Shown here: one piece after another, positions 16,704 through 45,601 of the stretch
Layout of the letters: the number at the start of each line of letters is the position of its first letter
Position numbering within the stretch: the first letter of the stretch is position 1
Assembly (NCBI GenBank): GCA_023251725.1
Contig: JAHEYG010000014.1
Span: 1-48,974, forward strand
Source of the DNA: Sphingobacteriaceae bacterium
GTDB lineage: Bacteria; Bacteroidota; Bacteroidia; B-17B0; Aurantibacillaceae
Direction of reading: 5' to 3'
DNA: 48,974 nucleotides
Translations under genes and position numbers: made by a program
The notes under the pieces: generated by a model
Databases searched by the model: none
Told to the model about the DNA's origin: nothing
What the model saw: only the letters and a program-made list of their open reading frames with translations

Positions 16704-18047
16704 TTATATAAATTTTAAGATCTCCTTCTCTACTTCCTCACTGTCCCACTTATTTTCTATACCGGGAATTGCCATTATTTTATCCATGATGGATTGCTGG
16801 CGCTCGCCTTCTTTTTTTGCGGTGCTGTAACGAATATGCGGACTGTAAGTCACCATCGAGTAAAGCGGAATCCATTTATCGGGATATTTTTCGTTGAAGC
16901 GAGCTTCTATTTTCTTTTGCAATAAAAAAGTTTTGTCGGCTGTTTTATCGCGCATCTCAATAAAATTTGAGATGGCTAAATCGGCAATAGCATCGCCGTC
17001 GGGTTTGCGCAAGGTTTCGTATTCGGGAAATATTTTTGTCCAGTCTTCTTTATGTTTATCAATTAATTCGTTTAATACAACACAATCTTCAAATCCACAA
17101 TTCATTCCCTGACCGAAAAACGGAACGATAGCGTGAGCCGCGTCGCCTATTAATCCTATTTTGTTGTCGAATGTCCACGGAAAACATTTTACGGTTACCA
17201 ACGAAGAAGCCGGATTATTCATAAAATCATCAATAAGTGTTGGCATTAACGGTACGGCATCTGAAAATTCGGTTTCGAAAAAAGTTTTTATTTGTTCTTT
17301 AGTTTTTAAATTGGCAAATGATTTTTCGCCCTCGAAAGGTAAAAATAAAGTGCAGGTAAAGTTTCCATCGAGATTTGGAAGCGCAATCATCATAAAACTT
17401 CCACGAGGCCAAATGTGCAAAGCATTTTTCTCCAATAAAAAACTACCGTCTTTTCCGGGGGGAATAATAAGTTCTTTATAACCCGCCGAAATATAATGCT
17501 GATTATATTCAAAACGATCGCTCGCTAATTGCATGTTTAACCGGGAAGCGGCAAAAGCGCCATCGGCTCCAAAAATTAAATCGCTTTTGCTTTGAGTTAT
17601 TTTTTTAGTGTTGTTATTTTCGAAGTAAGAATTTAAAGTTGCTCTATCGATTTGAGTACAACGTTCATCAAAATAAATTTTCACATTTTCTTGCTGCTCT
17701 GCTAAATCCATTAAACGCATATTTATTTCGGCGCGCGATACCGAATATATAGCCTGATTATTTTTCCCGTAAGGTTGAAAACCTTTTGAACCATCTTTAT
17801 TATGAAGAAAACGGCCATACATAGGGATGGCAATTTTTTTTATTTCCTCAGCAATACCAACTCCTTCCAACCCGCTCCATCCTCTATCGCTAAGAGCAAG
17901 ATTAATGGATTTACCGGCCGACAAAGTTGTTTTGCGCATATCGGCACGGCGTTCGTAAATATTTATTTTGTAACCGCGTTTGGCTAAATAAATAGAAACC
18001 AAAGATCCCACTAAACCGGCACCGATAATATTTACACTTTTATTCAT
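16704..18047 (-). CDS. kmo: Kynurenine 3-monooxygenase
   Basis: A flavin monooxygenase that hydroxylates L-kynurenine to 3-hydroxykynurenine with NADPH and O2, on the route from tryptophan to quinolinate and NAD. The ATG at 18047 gives 447 residues starting MNKSVNIIGAGLVGS, which places the FAD-binding GxGxxG at 9-14; an in-frame TTG five codons upstream is rejected. Other marks are INLALSDRGWSGLE, the FAD motif LIGDAAHAIVPFFGQGMNCGFEDC, and a hydrophobic-rich C-terminus. No other kynurenine-pathway gene is in the window. Confidence 0.95.
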   Translation of the reverse strand: MNKSVNIIGAGLVGSLVSIYLAKRGYKINIYERRADMRKTTLSAGKSINLALSDRGWSGLEGVGIAEEIKKIAIPMYGRFLHNKDGSKGFQPYGKNNQAIYSVSRAEINMRLMDLAEQQENVKIYFDERCTQIDRATLNSYFENNNTKKITQSKSDLIFGADGAFAASRLNMQLASDRFEYNQHYISAGYKELIIPPGKDGSFLLEKNALHIWPRGSFMMIALPNLDGNFTCTLFLPFEGEKSFANLKTKEQIKTFFETEFSDAVPLMPTLIDDFMNNPASSLVTVKCFPWTFDNKIGLIGDAAHAIVPFFGQGMNCGFEDCVVLNELIDKHKEDWTKIFPEYETLRKPDGDAIADLAISNFIEMRDKTADKTFLLQKKIEARFNEKYPDKWIPLYSMVTYSPHIRYSTAKKEGERQQSIMDKIMAIPGIENKWDSEEVEKEILKFI

Positions 18048-18059
18048 AATTGTCTGGAG

Positions 18060-18091
18060 CAATATTAGCTAAGAAAAATCGAAAAATCAAA
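18060..18091 (-). promoter_or_regulatory. Probable kmo promoter
   Basis: On the minus strand, TTTG (18088-18091) is followed after 20 bases by TAATATTG (18060-18067), one mismatch from TAnnTTTG. The ATG at 18047 is 12 bases beyond the -7 element, so the leader would be very short. Confidence 0.5.
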
Positions 18092-18133: not shown

Positions 18134-18205
18134 GTTATAAGGTTATAGGGTTATAGGGTTATAGGGTTATAGGGTTATAGGGTTACAGGGTTACAGGGTT
18201 ATTTA
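18134..18205. repeat. Octamer tandem repeat (GTTATAGG)n
   Basis: About nine units of eight bases: GTTATAAG, five perfect GTTATAGG copies, two GTTACAGG copies and a decayed last unit. The array lies upstream of kmo, between it and the stop codon of the DUF1801 gene. Confidence 0.95.
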
Positions 18206-18235: not shown

Positions 18236-18847
18236 TTAACGTTTCTTATACTTATCGTGCATCATTTGTTTTTGGCTGAGTTTAGAAATTGCCTGAAATA
18301 TTCTTTTTACCCTCGTCTCCGTTTTTTTGGCATCGTTTATCCAAAGCATATATTCTTTTCGGTGGGAAAAAGCCAATTGTTCGAAATAATTTAAAACACC
18401 GGATTTTTTAAATTCTTTTTTTACATCGGCGGGAATTATTATGATTTTAATTTTTGTTTCGGTTAATTTTTTCCCCTTCAAATTATTTTCAATCGCTTCA
18501 AATAAATATTCCAGTAAAATAGTTTCGTTTATTTCTTGTACTTCTGTAAATTCAAGGTGACGGTTATGCAATGTTCCCGGATTTGCAATCAATATCTTTT
18601 TTTTATCCTTTAACAAAACGCCCTGAAAAAAAACAAAATTCACTTTGGTTTTAAATCCGGCGTAACCACAAACCATTCCGCCTAAATAATAATTCGGTCC
18701 CCATTTCCAGTCCTCAATTATTTTGGGGTGACTTTTTAAAACAATTTCTCTGAGTCGGTTGCATACTTTTTTACTCCAATTTGGGAGAGAACCGATATAA
18801 TCGTCAATTTTAACCGAAGCTTCTATATCGTGTTTTGCTTTAGCCAT
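18236..18847 (-). CDS. DUF1801 and YdeI/OmpD-associated domain protein
   Basis: The ATG at 18847 gives 203 residues (MAKAKHDIEASVKIDDYI); upstream extension from a TTG is not supported. The first half is a DUF1801-like fold (about 10-120, WSKKVCNRLREIVLKSHPKIIEDWKWGPNYY ... FVFFQGVLL), and the C-terminal part has the YdeI/OmdA motif (IPADVKKEFKKSGVLNYFEQLAFSHRKEYMLWINDAKKTETRVKRI). Members of this family have no firm biochemical function. The start lies only 17 bases from the divergent tilS start, so both promoters must overlap the opposite gene. Confidence 0.85.
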   Translation of the reverse strand: MAKAKHDIEASVKIDDYIGSLPNWSKKVCNRLREIVLKSHPKIIEDWKWGPNYYLGGMVCGYAGFKTKVNFVFFQGVLLKDKKKILIANPGTLHNRHLEFTEVQEINETILLEYLFEAIENNLKGKKLTETKIKIIIIPADVKKEFKKSGVLNYFEQLAFSHRKEYMLWINDAKKTETRVKRIFQAISKLSQKQMMHDKYKKR

Positions 18848-18860
18848 TTTGTTACCTTTG
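18834..18860 (+). promoter_or_regulatory. Candidate tilS promoter
   Basis: TACCTTTG at 18853-18860 matches TAnnTTTG, with TTTG at 18834-18837, a somewhat short 15-base spacing. Only four bases separate the -7 element from the GTG at 18865, so transcription should begin at or very near the start codon. Confidence 0.5.
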
Positions 18861-18864
18861 TTGC

Positions 18865-20208
18865 GTGAAAAAAGGATTTGAATCAAACATAGCAAAAAAC
18901 TTACTGTTTTCAAAAAAAGACAAATTACTATTGGCATTTAGCGGTGGAATTGATTCGGTTGTTCTTGCAATGCTGTTAAAAGAGTGTGGATATAAATTTG
19001 AATTAGCACACTGCAATTTTAAATTAAGAGGAAAAGCGTCAGAGGCAGATGAAACATTTTGTAAAGAATTTTCTAAAAAAAATAAATTAACTCTTCATTC
19101 AAAATCGTTTAACACGAAAGTATTTGTAAAAGAAAATAAAATTTCGGTGCAGATGGCCGCCCGCGAATTAAGATACGCCTGGTTTAAGGAACTGGTTAAA
19201 AAAAATAAATATAATTATATTTTAACGGCGCATCATGCCAACGATAATATTGAAACTTTGTTGGTGAATTTAGTTCGCGGCACAGGCATTAACGGTTTAA
19301 AAGGTATTCCCAAAAAACAAAATTACATTGTTCGTCCGCTTTTATTTGCCACAAAGGATGAAATAATAAAATACGCCAAACAAAATAAATTAAAGTTCAG
19401 AAATGATAGCAGCAACGATGAGATAAAATACAAACGAAATTTTTTGCGGCACGAAATCATTCCCAAATTAAAAAAATTAAATCCCTCTTTAGAAAATACA
19501 TTCGCCCACAACATCAAATTATTTAACCAGTCGGCAGGCCTTGTAAAAGATTTTGTAATTCTTAAAAAATCGGAAATTGTTTCGTTTCAAAACAATTCTG
19601 TGAAGATTAATATTGAAAAATTATTGAAAGAGGAAGCCAATGAATTATTATTACACGAATGGCTGTATCCGTTTGGGTTTAATCCGGTGCAAACCGAACA
19701 AATTATTGAAAGTTTAAATCACAAAACACCAGGTAAATTATTTATTACAGAAACCCATAAAGCTTTAATTGACCGGAATTTTATTATTGTTGAATCAAAT
19801 CAGAAACAGGAAATAAAAAAAGAATTTATTCTTAAAAGTTTGAGTGACTTAAAAAAGTTACCACTAAAATTAGAATTTGAAAAAAGCTCTGACAAAAAAA
19901 TAATTTCGGGTGCTAATATTGCTCAGTTAGATTTTGAAAAATTAAAATTCCCCTTACAAATCAGAAAATGGAAACAGGGCGATAAATTTAAACCATTGGG
20001 AATGACCGGCTTTAAAAAATTAAGTGATTTTTTGATCAATCAGAAATTATCGGTTTTTGAAAAAGAAAATATTTGGTTACTTTGCAGTAATAACGAAATT
20101 GTTTGGGTTATTGGCTGGAGGGTTGACGACCGTTATAAAATTACCCGCGAAACAAAAACCGTTCTAAAACTTGTAATGAGCGAAGTCGAATTATTAAAAT
20201 CAGAATAA
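18865..20208 (+). CDS. tilS: tRNA(Ile)-lysidine synthase
   Basis: It modifies C34 of the CAU-anticodon tRNA-Ile to lysidine, using ATP and lysine, so that AUA codons are read as Ile. The 447 residues carry the PP-loop motif SGGIDS at 26-31, LAHCNFKLRGKASEADE, and the tilS signature TAHHANDNIETLLVNLVRGTGINGLKGIP; the C-terminal domain has IRKWKQGDKFKPLGMTGFKKLSDFLIN. The start codon is GTG, immediately downstream of a -7 promoter element. The stop codon TAA is followed directly by the TTG start of the next gene. Confidence 0.96.
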   Translation: MKKGFESNIAKNLLFSKKDKLLLAFSGGIDSVVLAMLLKECGYKFELAHCNFKLRGKASEADETFCKEFSKKNKLTLHSKSFNTKVFVKENKISVQMAARELRYAWFKELVKKNKYNYILTAHHANDNIETLLVNLVRGTGINGLKGIPKKQNYIVRPLLFATKDEIIKYAKQNKLKFRNDSSNDEIKYKRNFLRHEIIPKLKKLNPSLENTFAHNIKLFNQSAGLVKDFVILKKSEIVSFQNNSVKINIEKLLKEEANELLLHEWLYPFGFNPVQTEQIIESLNHKTPGKLFITETHKALIDRNFIIVESNQKQEIKKEFILKSLSDLKKLPLKLEFEKSSDKKIISGANIAQLDFEKLKFPLQIRKWKQGDKFKPLGMTGFKKLSDFLINQKLSVFEKENIWLLCSNNEIVWVIGWRVDDRYKITRETKTVLKLVMSEVELLKSE

Positions 20209-39894: not shown

Positions 39895-39919
39895 GTGCAA
39901 AATTATTTGTTCAATTCAG

Positions 39920-39993
39920 TAGCGAAGGGGGGACTCGAACCCCCGACCTCAGGGTTATGAATCCTGTGCTCTAACCAGCTGAGCTACCTCGCC
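39920..39993 (-). tRNA. tRNA with anticodon CAU, probably elongator tRNA-Met
   Basis: A 74-base cloverleaf on the minus strand: acceptor GGCGAGG / CTTCGCT (G1 with U72 wobble, discriminator A73), D arm GCTC-AGCTGGTTA-GAGC, anticodon arm CAGGA-TTCATAA-CCCTG (the last pair is A31 with C39), variable AGGTC, and T arm GGGGG-TTCGAGT-CCCCC. CCA is not encoded. The anticodon CAU could be elongator Met or Ile2 (lysidine-modified by TilS); G1-U72 argues against the initiator, which has an unpaired C1-A72. The 39994-40238 stretch beyond it, to the next gene, shows no gene that I can support. Confidence 0.93.
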
Positions 39994-40238
39994 ATTAAGG
40001 GCGGCAAAGTTAATGTTTTTTAGAAACCATTTATTCCTTCCCAAAAATTAAGCCTAATTTACAATTATTCCTATAATAACAATTGATTCTAATAAGCTGG
40101 TTTTAAGGTAATTAATAATATATTTTGAATGTCTCATCCTGCTCATTAATCCTACTATTATTAGCTACAGTTTTTATTTCTTAAAAGTAATTGCGGGATG
40201 CAAAAAAAGTTATATATTTCAGAAATAAATTTCCAAAT

Positions 40239-41153
40239 ATGTCGAAAAAAGGCAAGGTTTCGTCGGGAAAAAAGACCAAAAAAAAATCTGTTAAGTCTTC
40301 CGTTAAAAAGGCGACTAAATCGGGTAAGGCTGCTTCTAAAAAAAAGGTAGCTAAAAAACCGTTGCCAAATAAAAGTAATAAATCAAAAAAAACCATTAAA
40401 ATTTCTAAATCCATATCTAAAAATAAAACCGGAAAAATAATCGCTAAAAAAGTGATTCATAAAAAAACAGTTAAAGCACCTGTTTCTCATCCAAAAAAAA
40501 CAGCCTCTACAAAAGAAATATTGGTTCCTAAAATAAAAACGGTTACAATTTCGAACGAAAAAGTTCACGAACTTTCTAAAAAGCCCTTTTATATTAAAAA
40601 AGACGATGCTCCAATTCCGGAATACAAGCCTATTATAAAACCAACCATAAAAGTTGACAACAGTTCAAAAGATGGTTTTCCTACAACATTAAAAACCACA
40701 AACGCTACCTCATTTGTCTCCACGCCTTCAAAAAAAGCAGACTCCTATTCAATTAAACCCGAAAAAGAACCGGCCGGAAAATTTGAATTAGAGTTTGTGA
40801 TTAAAGCTTCCGGCGAATTATTATATGAATTTTTAATTACACCGAGCGGATTATCGGAATGGTTTTGCGACGACGTAAACATACGAAACGGTATTTATAC
40901 TTTTGTTTGGGACGGACAGTTACAACAAGCGCGTTTATTAAAAACCGTTGAAGAACAATTGGTAAGATACCAATGGGTGGATAAAACTGATGGCAGTTAC
41001 TTTGAATTTAAAATTCAAAAAGACGATTTAACCAATGATATTTCTTTAATGATAACTGATTTTGCTGCTGAAAAAAACGAACAGGAATCAGCAAAATTAC
41101 TTTGGGCAAGTCAAATTGATAAATTGCTTCACGTAATGGGTTCTTACTTTTAA
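40239..41153 (+). CDS. START-like domain protein with lysine-rich histone-like N-terminal tail
   Basis: From the ATG at 40239 (304 residues; an in-frame TTG 16 codons upstream is unlikely, and TATATTTC at 40212-40219 lies close to the ATG). The first 91 residues contain about 34 lysines and no acidic residue, with Ser, Ala and Pro between, much like a eukaryotic histone H1 tail or bacterial AlgP/HctA-type tails. A Pro/Lys/Ser linker follows (about 92-180), and then a START-like (SRPBCC) domain at about 185-304 (GKFELEFVIKASGELLYEFLITPSGLSEWFCDDVNIRNGIYTFVWDG to VMGSYF). The isolated domain is common in this phylum; the tail is unusual. It could bind DNA, RNA or acidic surfaces (inference). 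Confidence 0.85.
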   Translation: MSKKGKVSSGKKTKKKSVKSSVKKATKSGKAASKKKVAKKPLPNKSNKSKKTIKISKSISKNKTGKIIAKKVIHKKTVKAPVSHPKKTASTKEILVPKIKTVTISNEKVHELSKKPFYIKKDDAPIPEYKPIIKPTIKVDNSSKDGFPTTLKTTNATSFVSTPSKKADSYSIKPEKEPAGKFELEFVIKASGELLYEFLITPSGLSEWFCDDVNIRNGIYTFVWDGQLQQARLLKTVEEQLVRYQWVDKTDGSYFEFKIQKDDLTNDISLMITDFAAEKNEQESAKLLWASQIDKLLHVMGSYF

Positions 41154-41214: not shown

Positions 41215-42438
41215 ATGAAAAAAATTATTTTATTTTTTGTTTCAATTTCACAGTTTGCAATAGCGCAAACAATTTCTAAAAGTAATTTACAAAAAAATCT
41301 TTCTTATTTAGCTTCCGACAAATTAAACGGAAGAGGAACTTCATCGCCGGATGAAAAAGTGGCGGCAGATTATATTGCTTCTGAATTTAAAAAAATTGGA
41401 TTAGCAGCCGGAAACACTTCTTCTTATCTTTATAATTTTGTATTTAAACAAGGCGCCGGCTTGCACGATACATCAACCGCCAATTCGAAAGAACGAAAAG
41501 GAATAAATGTTTTGGGTTATTTAAATAATGATGCGCCTTATACTATTGTTATTGGTGCACATTTCGATCATTTAGGATTGGGGCATGACAAAAATAGTTT
41601 AGACGCAAATCCCGAAAATAAAATTCATAATGGTGCCGATGATAATGCCAGCGGAACAGTTGGTGTAATTGAATTGGCTAATTATTTTGCTAACAATAAT
41701 AAAAAAGAAAAATATAATTTTTTATTTATGTGTTTTTCGGGAGAGGAATTAGGATTGATTGGTTCTAAAAAATGGTGCGACCAACCAACCATCGCTTTAA
41801 ACAGCATTAATTACATGATAAATTTAGATATGGTAGGAAGATTAAACGACAGTACAAAAAAGTTATTGGTGTATGGCGTTGGAACCTCTCCGGTTTGGAT
41901 ACCCCTACTCGATTCTTTGAAATCAATTTTCAGTATTAAGAAAGATAGTGCGGGGATTGGTCCGAGCGACCAAACTTCTTTTTATTTAAAAGATATTCCG
42001 GTGTTGCATTTTTTTACGGGACAACATAGTGATTATCATAAACCAAGTGATGATGCAGAAAAAATTAATTACAAAGGAGAAGTTGAAGTTTTAAATTTTA
42101 TTGTAAAAATTATTGAGGCCTTAGATAATTCGCCAAAACTTACATTTTTAAAAACACGTAATACAGAATCCGGTAAAAGTAGTTTTAAAGTAACGATGGG
42201 AATTATGCCCGATTATGCTTTTGAAGGTAAAGGTGTAAGAGTGGATGGTGTTTCTGATAATAAGCCGGCCGCAAAGGCCGGCGTTTTAAGAGGAGATGTA
42301 ATTATAAAATTTAGTGATTTGAATATTGGTACCATTCAGGATTACATGAAGGGACTTCAAAAATTTAATAAAGGCGAAACTACAAAAATAAAAGTTTTAA
42401 GAGACGGAAAAGAAATTGAATTGAATGTTACGTTTTAA
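41215..42438 (+). CDS. M28-family zinc aminopeptidase with PDZ domain
   Basis: A 407-residue exported protein with a signal peptide 1-18 (ending AIAQ), then an M28 peptidase domain (about 25-305) and a PDZ domain (about 325-407). Metal ligands are recognisable: H116 in GAHFDHLG, D142/D143 in GADDNASG, E177-E178 in FSGEELGLIG, D205 in NLDMVGR, and His in GQHSDYHKPSDD. The PDZ part (GIMPDYAFEGKGVRVDGVSDNKPAAKAGVLRGDVIIKF) probably regulates access or binds C-termini. It should cleave N-terminal residues from peptides in the periplasm or outside the cell. Its stop codon overlaps that of the convergent desaturase gene. Confidence 0.93.
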   Translation: MKKIILFFVSISQFAIAQTISKSNLQKNLSYLASDKLNGRGTSSPDEKVAADYIASEFKKIGLAAGNTSSYLYNFVFKQGAGLHDTSTANSKERKGINVLGYLNNDAPYTIVIGAHFDHLGLGHDKNSLDANPENKIHNGADDNASGTVGVIELANYFANNNKKEKYNFLFMCFSGEELGLIGSKKWCDQPTIALNSINYMINLDMVGRLNDSTKKLLVYGVGTSPVWIPLLDSLKSIFSIKKDSAGIGPSDQTSFYLKDIPVLHFFTGQHSDYHKPSDDAEKINYKGEVEVLNFIVKIIEALDNSPKLTFLKTRNTESGKSSFKVTMGIMPDYAFEGKGVRVDGVSDNKPAAKAGVLRGDVIIKFSDLNIGTIQDYMKGLQKFNKGETTKIKVLRDGKEIELNVTF

Positions 42439-43409
42439 AAATTTATTCCCACCATTTTTTGAGTCTCGTGATCCCAAACTTTTAATTTAAAGCAGGCCAT
42501 AATATCTTTTGGTTTAAGCGTTGTTTTTTTTGGATTTTGTAATTCAGGAAACGCTTTCATTACTTCCGGCAAACGGTAAAACGGAATCCTAGCATTGATA
42601 TGATGAATGTGATGATAGCCCACATTAGCAGTAATCCATTTTAGCGGCCACCACGATACATCCAAAAAACTTGACGATTCTAATGCAGCGCCTTCGTAGG
42701 TCCACTCTTCATCACCTGCAAATGTTACTCCCGGAAAATTATGTTGTGCATAAAACAAATACGTGCCAATGCCACCAAAAATAAAATGCGGAATAATGCA
42801 AAGAAAAAGCCAGGTTTGCCATCCTAAAAAATGAAAAACACAATACTGATAAGTATAATGTATTATCAAAGCCAATAACGAATCAGCATGTTTTCTAAAA
42901 CCTGTAATAATTGATTTCACACATATACCAAGCGTGAAGGCGAAAAAATATCCGCAAGCAATCGTAAGCGGATGACGAACAAATAAATAATGAAATTTTT
43001 CGGCTTTGCTGCATTTCATAAATTTTTGTTTCGAATAAATTGGAAAATAACCAATGCTGGAGAAAGATAATTTTGAATTGTTTTTATGATGGTCGTCGTG
43101 ACTTTCTCGCCAAATACTTTTTGGTGCCAAAACATAAATTCCAAAAATGGTGAATATGATGTCGCCCAATAAAGATTCGTTTAAAATAGACTTATGCTGC
43201 TGATCGTGATAAATACAAAACATTCTTACAATCACTAATCCCGTAAAAATGCTGCATATTAACCGCAGTGGCCAAAAATGGATTAGTAAAATACTTGAAA
43301 AACTCAATAGTAAAATAAAAAGGGTAGAAAGAGTATATAGCCAGCTCTTTTTACGATCTTCTTTAGCATAAGGTCCGGTTGCTAATATTAATTGTTTGCC
43401 TTCTAACAT
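42435..43409 (-). CDS. Membrane fatty acid desaturase (copy 1)
   Basis: From the ATG at 43409 (324 residues, MLEGKQLILATGPYAKEDRKKSW), with four or more membrane helices and the three histidine boxes of the integral-membrane desaturase family: HDQQH (68-72), HDDHH (104-108) and HHIHH (266-270), plus AQHNF. It should insert a double bond in a fatty acyl chain of membrane lipids using O2 and di-iron; acyl substrate and position are unknown. In-frame ATGs upstream (43433, 43415) are less likely, because the paralogue has none. A -7 element TATATTTG lies at 43418-43425, eight bases before the ATG. Confidence 0.88.
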   Translation of the reverse strand: MLEGKQLILATGPYAKEDRKKSWLYTLSTLFILLLSFSSILLIHFWPLRLICSIFTGLVIVRMFCIYHDQQHKSILNESLLGDIIFTIFGIYVLAPKSIWRESHDDHHKNNSKLSFSSIGYFPIYSKQKFMKCSKAEKFHYLFVRHPLTIACGYFFAFTLGICVKSIITGFRKHADSLLALIIHYTYQYCVFHFLGWQTWLFLCIIPHFIFGGIGTYLFYAQHNFPGVTFAGDEEWTYEGAALESSSFLDVSWWPLKWITANVGYHHIHHINARIPFYRLPEVMKAFPELQNPKKTTLKPKDIMACFKLKVWDHETQKMVGINF

Positions 43410-43417
43410 TTGCATTT

Positions 43418-43425
43418 CAAATATA
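43418..43425 (-). promoter_or_regulatory. -7 element of desaturase copy 1
   Basis: TATATTTG on the minus strand, ending eight bases before the ATG at 43409. This implies a leader of only a few bases. The paralogue has the same arrangement. Confidence 0.55.
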
Positions 43426-43546
43426 TAAATCAATAGGCAATTATCAAAATGCGATTTTAGCTAGAGAAATGAGCCATAAAACGCTTTTTTTAGCCTTTTT
43501 ATGAGAAATTTGCAGGAAGAAACATTGAGAAATAGAATAATTTTTG

Positions 43547-44512
43547 TCAAATTCCAACCATTTTCTGAGCATCGTAATCCCATACTTTTAATTTAAAGCA
43601 GGCAATGATATCCTTTGGCTTTAGAGAAGTTTTTTTGGCATTTTGAAATTCGGGGAAAGCTTTCATCACTTCCGGTAAACGGTAAAACGGAATTTTAGAA
43701 TTAATGTGATGAATGTGATGGTAGCCAATATTTGCAGTGGCCCATCGCAGTGGCCAGGTTAATTCCATATAACTCGACGATTCAAGGGCCGCGCCTTCGT
43801 AAGTCCAATCTTCGTTACCACTAAATGTTGAGCCCGGAAAATTATGCTGAGCATAAAATAAATAGGCACCCATTCCGCCGGAAATTAAATGAGGAATTGC
43901 GCAGAAAAAAATCCAGGTTTGCCATCCCAAAAAATAAAATATGCAAAACTGATAAGCATAATGAACAATTAAAGCGACTAAAGAATCGAGATGTTTGCTG
44001 AAGCGATTAATTATAGATTTATAACACATGCCCCACATAAATGCAAAAAAATATCCGAAGGTAATTGTTAGAGGGTGGCGAATAAATAAATAATGAATTT
44101 GTTCGGCGCGACTACATTTCAAAAATTTTTGTTTCGAATAAATTGGATATGAGCCGATGCTGGCACTGAATAATTTTGAATTATTTTTGTGGTGGTAGTC
44201 GTGACTGCGGCTCCAGATATTACTTGGTGCTAAAACGTAAAATCCGAAAATGGTAAAAATAATATCAGCGAGTTTTGATTTATACAAAATAGATTTGTGT
44301 TGATGGTCGTGATAAATTACAAACAAGCGAACAATTACAAATCCCGCAAAAATACTGAGCAATAAACGGAGGGGCCAAAAGTGAATCAATAAAATTGCAG
44401 ATAAACCGGCTATTAAAATAAATAATGTTGAAAGTGTATAGAACCAACTTTTTTTTCGGTCTTCTTTAGCGTAAGGTCTTGTTGCTAATATTAATTGTTT
44501 TCCTTCTAACAT
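43547..44512 (-). CDS. Membrane fatty acid desaturase (copy 2)
   Basis: From the ATG at 44512 (321 residues, MLEGKQLILATRPYAKEDRKKSW). It is a close tandem paralogue of the preceding desaturase, with histidine boxes HDHQH, HDYHH and HHIHH all intact. A longer open frame to 44662 is spurious: it reads nonamer repeats as SIPSISS-type residues and lies upstream of the conserved start. TATCTTTG at 44521-44528 (minus strand) is eight bases before the ATG, as in copy 1. The duplication may allow different acyl substrates or different regulation, such as by temperature (inference). Confidence 0.88.
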   Translation of the reverse strand: MLEGKQLILATRPYAKEDRKKSWFYTLSTLFILIAGLSAILLIHFWPLRLLLSIFAGFVIVRLFVIYHDHQHKSILYKSKLADIIFTIFGFYVLAPSNIWSRSHDYHHKNNSKLFSASIGSYPIYSKQKFLKCSRAEQIHYLFIRHPLTITFGYFFAFMWGMCYKSIINRFSKHLDSLVALIVHYAYQFCIFYFLGWQTWIFFCAIPHLISGGMGAYLFYAQHNFPGSTFSGNEDWTYEGAALESSSYMELTWPLRWATANIGYHHIHHINSKIPFYRLPEVMKAFPEFQNAKKTSLKPKDIIACFKLKVWDYDAQKMVGI

Positions 44513-44520
44513 TTGTTTTT

Positions 44521-44528
44521 CAAAGATA
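44521..44528 (-). promoter_or_regulatory. -7 element of desaturase copy 2
   Basis: TATCTTTG on the minus strand, ending eight bases before the ATG at 44512, exactly as in the paralogue. Confidence 0.55.
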
Positions 44529-44558
44529 CAAAGCAAAGTGCAATAAATGAAAAAAGAG

Positions 44559-44643
44559 GATGAAGGGATTGAAGAGACTGGAGGGATTGAAGGGACGGAA
44601 GAGATTGAAGAGATTGAAGGGATTGAAGAGATTGAAGGGATTG
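44559..44643. repeat. Nonamer tandem repeat (GATTGAAGG/GATTGAAGA)
   Basis: About nine units of nine bases with G/A alternation at the last position and a few substitutions (GACTGGAGG, GACGGAAGA). It lies upstream of desaturase copy 2 and downstream of the acyltransferase gene. Read in one frame on the minus strand it encodes SIPSISS-type residues, which wrongly extends the desaturase frame. Confidence 0.93.
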
Positions 44644-44651
44644 TTTGGAAT

Positions 44652-44675
44652 ATGAAAGACAAAAGATAAAAGATT
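44652..44675. repeat. Heptamer repeat (AGATAAA-type)
   Basis: ATGAAAGACA, AAAGAT and AAAGATT units of period seven; matches 2599-2622 over 24 bases with two mismatches. Confidence 0.6.
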
Positions 44676-44725: not shown

Positions 44726-45601
44726 CTATTTTGGGCGTTTGTGTTTCCACCGGCGATGACTCCATAACCAAATTTCGGGTTGTTTAATAATATCAGATTC
44801 TAGTTTTTTAGTATGAAGTTCTGATATTTCTCCTTCTTTAGTGTTTTTTGGTTCCGCTATTAATATTTCTGCATTTACTTCGTAAAATCCTCTTTTTACT
44901 CTGTTAACTGTAACATAAACTACCGGAAAATTTAATTTCTGCGCAATTTTTTCTGTTCCCCAAAAAACGGATGTTTCCTGATTTAAAAATTTTGTCCAGT
45001 AAGCACTTTCGGGCGCGGGTGTTTGGTCGGCAATAAATGCGGTGGCATTTACTTCGTTTTTATTTTTAATCATTTCGCGAATGGTATTATTCATCGCATA
45101 CAATTTTGTACCAAAGCGCGAACGCATGTTGTAAGTTAATTTATCGAAATATTTATTGGTGAGCGGATGGTAAATAACATACAACTGCTGTTTACATATT
45201 AAACTAAAAGTATTGCCGGCCCATTCCCAATTACCAAAATGACCCATTACAATAATGCAACTCTTTTTTTCGGCATTTAATTTTTCGAAAATAGCCATCG
45301 TTTCATTGGTAAATTTACAATGTTGTTTTGCTTTTTGCTGTGAGATAGTAAGTGTTTTAAATGTTTCTAAAAATAAATCGCACAAATATTTAAAAAATTT
45401 CTTCTCCAATTGTTTTAATTCGGTATGCGATTTTTCGGGAAAAGAATTTTTTAAATTCTCATAAACAATTTTTTTTCTGTATCCTAAAATATAATACATT
45501 AAAAAAAAGAATACATCAGAAACTAAATATAAAACAGGAAATGGTAAAACAGATACCAGGTAAATAAACGGGAGTCCGATATAATAGCCGATGGCTTTCA
45601 A
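44726..45601 (-). CDS. LpxL/HtrB-like lipid A (lysophospholipid) acyltransferase
   Basis: A 291-residue protein with N-terminal membrane segments (about 1-40), then the acyltransferase core with the catalytic H121 to E126 pair in GHFGNWEWAG and FIADQTPAPESAYWTKFLNQETSVFWG. This matches the LpxL/LpxM family, which adds secondary acyl chains to lipid A in the inner membrane. It lies next to two fatty acid desaturases, a suggestive but unproven association for outer-membrane lipid tailoring. Confidence 0.9.
   Translation of the reverse strand: MKAIGYYIGLPFIYLVSVLPFPVLYLVSDVFFFLMYYILGYRKKIVYENLKNSFPEKSHTELKQLEKKFFKYLCDLFLETFKTLTISQQKAKQHCKFTNETMAIFEKLNAEKKSCIIVMGHFGNWEWAGNTFSLICKQQLYVIYHPLTNKYFDKLTYNMRSRFGTKLYAMNNTIREMIKNKNEVNATAFIADQTPAPESAYWTKFLNQETSVFWGTEKIAQKLNFPVVYVTVNRVKRGFYEVNAEILIAEPKNTKEGEISELHTKKLESDIIKQPEIWLWSHRRWKHKRPK

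Follow-up and report, generated by a model that had tools for sequence, protein, structure and literature searches.

Analysis of a 48,974-nucleotide stretch of a Sphingobacteriaceae genome (here called the window) revealed a gene whose product joins a long, histone-H1-like basic tail at its N terminus to a START_2 domain. The open reading frame (ORF) is located on the plus strand (40239..41153) and encodes 304 amino acids plus stop. Both halves of the protein are of a known kind, and a description of their combination was not found in the open-access literature searched. By analogy with AlgP and PhaF, which have H1-like tails, the most likely role of the tail would be to tether the START-like/Aha1-like domain to the nucleoid, a reading to which we give an even chance. 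The fusion provides a direct clue to where START_2 proteins carry out their work, and natural pairs of tailed and untailed forms within one class, and even within one family, make this question testable. Few bacterial proteins with H1-like tails are known, and the fusion extends this group by a new partner domain.

Composition and architecture of the fusion protein

The basic tail comprises residues 1 to 91 (40239..40511, plus strand) and is predicted to be disordered. Translation confirmed the composition given in the first-pass annotation, with 34 lysines and no aspartate or glutamate in this segment. Arginine is absent as well, the net charge is +34, and the first acidic residue of the protein is at position 93. 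Given 8.7% lysine in the other long ORFs of the window, the binomial probability of this lysine count is 7e-14, and the lysine-richest stretch of 91 amino acids in these ORFs contains 20 lysines. The tail carries KKVA/KKPA/KPAP-type repeats, akin to the KPAA repeats in AlgP and PhaF; alanine accounts for ~6% of it, and the tails of relatives come nearer to the A/P-rich type. Long, disordered, rich in K, A, and P, and with few acidic residues, it is of the kind known from AlgP and PhaF. When used as a query against its own genome, this low-complexity sequence yielded no further significant match (next match, E = 0.37).

The tail is followed by a linker of residues 92 to 180 (40512..40778, plus strand), which is also predicted to be disordered, has a net charge of about +6 (+6 for residues 92 to 178), and ends in ...SY.[IV]KPEKEP.GKFE. 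The stretch at 40647-40790, which runs into the domain, is better conserved than the remaining linker, and the same region was seen in L009 to L057. The consensus of the pre-domain linker in the window's lineage is SKIASIxSSITNPxKKxxSYxxKPEKEPxGKFE, and this conserved stretch is perhaps a docking motif.

A complete START-like domain had been proposed to follow, and residues 181 to 301 (40779..41141, plus strand) indeed matched START_2 (PF19569) with an E value of 3.2e-40 and 137 bits against a gathering cutoff of 23.6, covering positions 6 to 125 of the 126 in the profile. The domain region is acidic, with a net charge of -9 for residues 179 to 304. AHSA1 (PF08327) reached 14.7 bits, below its gathering score of 22.1, and an NCBIfam profile search with the window protein gave no match. 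A sequence search of the PDB returned 2lio (3.7e-18). In the AlphaFold2 model, tail and linker had pLDDT values of about 45 to 59 (about 50 for the tail), consistent with disorder, and the domain was modeled as a helix-grip fold with a pLDDT of about 92 (92.5). The closest solved folds were Aha1/AHSA1-type and other SRPBCC proteins (2m89 and 3q63), which share the fold of the domain (TM score of about 0.75) but differ in sequence (17 to 19% identity). Many of the solved structures close to the domain have no described function, and a search of a viral structure library gave no significant match. Residues that are invariant or nearly so in the domain lie in the WF..D.V segment and the FxW motif and include the D and W of DF...LW. 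No function of START_2 is described in the open-access literature searched; it is the fold class that would suggest a reading of the domain as a lipid or small-molecule sensor.

As judged by likeness, the closest working analogues of the tail would be AlgP and PhaF of Pseudomonas, whose H1-like KPAA-repeat tails are known or believed to bind DNA and to position granules (PMC9239181). In these proteins, as in the window protein, a folded or helical functional part is combined with a long, disordered Lys/Ala/Pro-rich H1-like tail, which in AlgP and PhaF provides a link to nucleoid or granules. In contrast to both, the window protein carries its tail at the N terminus, and its partner domain is START-like, not phasin or helical. 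The shared feature of the tails is their composition, and homology is not claimed. Hc1 (PF07432) is likewise lysine rich and basic, but it is a stand-alone protein of about 60 amino acids, and the window protein did not match its profile at E values of up to 1.

Start of the gene and distribution of the tail

Among 61 genomes of the window's family, 54 contain the START_2 domain, and in all 54 the frame that holds it spans 270 amino acids or more; one genome (G031) has a second START_2 match as well, in a 177-amino-acid frame near a contig end. All tails of the family that were read directly are lysine rich and start mostly with MSKKxKxSS or MS[NT]K. A chimera in the metagenome-assembled genome (MAG) or a frame artifact was ruled out by the presence of the same long frame in every family genome with the domain.

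In-frame ATG codons of the window ORF are found only at residues 1, 271, and 300, i.e., none lies between the first residue and the domain, and GTG or TTG codons ahead of the domain occur only at residues 42, 72, and 95. A longer, TTG-started frame would be mechanically possible from 40191, but it is position 40239 that carries the conserved MSKKxK.. start. Bacteroidota promoters carry TAnnTTTG as their -7 element. A motif that we take to resemble it, TAnATT[TG]C, was found within 70 nt upstream of the tail ATG in 59 of 78 tailed relatives, compared with 2.5 (maximum, 7) in shuffles, a count that is not a probability as the relatives are nonindependent. Ahead of the domain, the motif was found in 1 of the 78. 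The promoter-like element of the window gene, TATATTTC (40213..40220, plus strand), starts 26 nt 5' of the ATG, and in many family members the distance is 23 to 27 nt. Since no ATG lies between the first residue and the domain and the promoter-like element lies in front of the tail, a START_2 product without the tail seems very unlikely. A start after the tail was ruled out on the same two observations. The first-pass annotation had named a missing tail in close orthologues, together with such a later start, as signs of a spurious fusion; with the long frame in every genus and family member that carries the domain (54 of 54), lysine-rich tails in those read directly, and no further ATG before the domain, neither was seen.

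Across the class Bacteroidia, a START_2 gene was present in 341 of 396 genomes sampled (about 86%), usually as a single copy. Most Bacteroidia have this same single-copy gene without a tail. Frames of about 125 to 190 amino acids were found in the well-sampled groups f42, f36, f41, f15, f22, f33, and others, and the basic tail was absent from the orthologues of these groups that were read directly. These short orthologues, with 2lio as a solved relative, thus share with the window protein the domain that is nearly universal in the class but differ in frame length and in the missing tail. Tails were read in the window's family (f1) and in f4, f6, f7, f9, f16, f19, f21, f28, f29, f38, f88, f110, and f115, i.e., the tailed architecture exists in at least 13 further families of the class, and many uncultured Bacteroidota have it. 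Tail length in f16 ranges from 51 to 167 amino acids, f29 includes both tailed and untailed members, and the f9 representative (L117) comes from a GC-rich genome and encodes a protein identical to that of the Flavobacteriales MAG L101. An extension of 52 amino acids in L129 was left out of the tails, as the frame seems to be spuriously lengthened there. The proposed H1-like fusion therefore holds and extends to many families; its description as unexpected is right in comparison with the common tail-less orthologue, but not within the window's own lineage, where the tail is the rule.

Trees of the domain require five to seven changes between the tailed and untailed states and would suggest independent origins of the tail. 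As a constraint to a single tailed clade was not rejected (AU P values of 0.8 and 0.13) and the 123 alignment columns are too few, we do not claim such origins as established. One START_2 fusion near those of the window's family (77% identity over residues 161 to 302) stands in a record titled Parachlamydiaceae (L049), which is probably a misbinned contig.

Conservation of charge in the tail

The exact sequence of the tail is weakly conserved among relatives. Over the first 95 residues, dN/dS ranged from 0.16 to 0.53 in 17 close pairs, values that are rough because several synonymous distances were saturated and the alignment is of low complexity; for the domain, dN/dS in close pairs was 0 to 0.06 where computable. 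Replacements in the tail were mostly A/V, A/S, A/P, and I/V, and only 3 of the 105 replacements involving lysine were to or from aspartate or glutamate. The first 100 residues of 79 tails contained 38.7 ± 4.3 lysines plus arginines and 1.8 aspartates plus glutamates. In four tails from loci with 66 to 68% GC, lysine dropped to 17.5 and arginine rose to 17. The dN/dS values below 1, the few changes between lysine and acidic residues, and the swap of lysine for arginine at high GC argue that charge is kept more than sequence, and the tail evolves under purifying selection that maintains its positive charge. Bacteroidota MAGs with 66 to 68% GC, three of them titled Flavobacteriales, contribute L101, L102, L103, and L105; their START_2 tail is rich in Arg, Lys, Ala, and Pro (about 240 to 290 amino acids) and is the same tail in an arginine version.

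Within 800 kb sampled from a congener (642 ORFs), only the orthologue of this gene attained a net charge of 30 per 90 amino acids, and the next most basic 90-amino-acid stretches had net charges of 27 and 25. In this sample of one congener, such a tail is thus restricted to this gene. Genome-wide lysine enrichment was ruled out for this congener, since no similar tails occurred in the 800 kb.

Gene neighborhood and candidate targets of the tail

Upstream of the gene, the window contains a tRNA-Met gene (39919-39993, minus strand). The downstream neighbor encodes a PDZ-domain-containing M28 peptidase, which is the next gene in the window's genus; it was found in this position at six loci, all of them tailed. 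In other lineages, a PAP2 phosphatase gene directly follows START_2 on the same strand (30 loci in several families), and LptF/LptG is encoded next to or near START_2 (20 loci), which hints that the domain is concerned with envelope lipids. Both neighbors occur with tailed and tail-less orthologues alike, so that this pairing is uninformative on the tail.

In the nucleoid-tethering reading, a cytoplasmic START-like protein of the SRPBCC/Aha1 type would bear an N-terminal tail that is intrinsically disordered and resembles histone H1. Via its charge, this tail would bind nucleoid DNA nonspecifically and thereby tether the acidic START-like domain, together with whatever this domain binds, to the chromosome. 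Binding of nucleic acids, as put forward in the first-pass annotation, is plausible for such a tail, and from its likeness to AlgP and PhaF we infer DNA as the main target as well as the tethering role. Several points speak against a DNA tether. The same tail chemistry serves the binding of RNA, polyphosphate, or membranes, and RNA, polyphosphate, and the acidic membrane are possible targets in place of DNA. Furthermore, the tail is missing in most Bacteroidia, and the conserved neighbors in other lineages are related to lipids, not to the chromosome. HU-family proteins were found in all seven genomes tested, with two per genome tested in the window's family, so the nucleoid is not short of other architects. 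An Hc1 (PF07432) gene was found in none of 37 genomes of the window's family searched, including the window's own; with HU present and Hc1 not found in these 37 genomes, the tail could add an H1-like function.

Basic disordered regions can also promote RNA coacervation, and Rho of Bacteroides thetaiotaomicron condenses via its disordered region (PMC13269538). A tail that binds RNA or ribosomes, so that the START-like domain accumulates on RNA or in RNA condensates, would fit with this, and with a ribosomal-protein-like ORF among the next most basic proteins of the sampled congener. We consider this unlikely, as the tail has no accompanying RNA-binding domain and long K/A/P repeats (KKPA, KPAP) are better known in DNA-binding H1-like proteins. 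A similarly low probability applies to binding of polyphosphate granules or of the acidic inner-membrane face, by which a lipid-handling START-like domain would be brought to the membrane. AlgP, which is H1-like, is associated with polyphosphate granules (PMC9239181), and the 30 PAP2 and 20 LptF/G loci of other lineages place envelope-lipid genes beside START_2; however, the window's genus has the M28 peptidase gene and no lipid gene next, the pairing is shared with tail-less orthologues, and basic motifs that bind membranes typically have aromatic or bulky hydrophobic anchors interspersed, which the tail appears to lack.

The tail might also have no specific target and be an extension for solubility or expression, a product of drift through poly-AAA codons in AT-rich genomes. 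Lysine codons are A rich, the genomes are mostly AT rich, and relatives share little of the tail's exact sequence, but dN/dS below 1, the maintained charge, the swap to arginine at 67% GC, the MSKKxKxSS start conserved in the family, and the absence of other such tails from the congener sequence sampled make drift highly improbable. Starting from nucleoid tethering, a bolder and doubtful extension is that a large and mostly uncultured part of the Bacteroidia made a near-universal, single-copy START-like protein chromosome bound via an H1-like tail, possibly repeatedly. Such proteins would form a nucleoid-associated class that binds ligands or partners and couples the nucleoid to the state of lipids or metabolites.

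Elsewhere in the window, two adjacent paralogous genes on the minus strand (42435-43433 and 43547-44662) are fatty-acid-desaturase-like, and a lipid A acyltransferase-like gene (44726-45601, minus strand) adjoins them. At its 5' end, the second desaturase frame contains a 9-bp/27-bp repeat array (44561-44643), read as SSIPSI-type repeats, and the real start of this gene may lie after the array (MLEGKQ). A further repeat, the octamer GTTATAGG in 8.6 copies (18134-18202), is located between the minus-strand ORFs 16704-18062 and 18236-18937.
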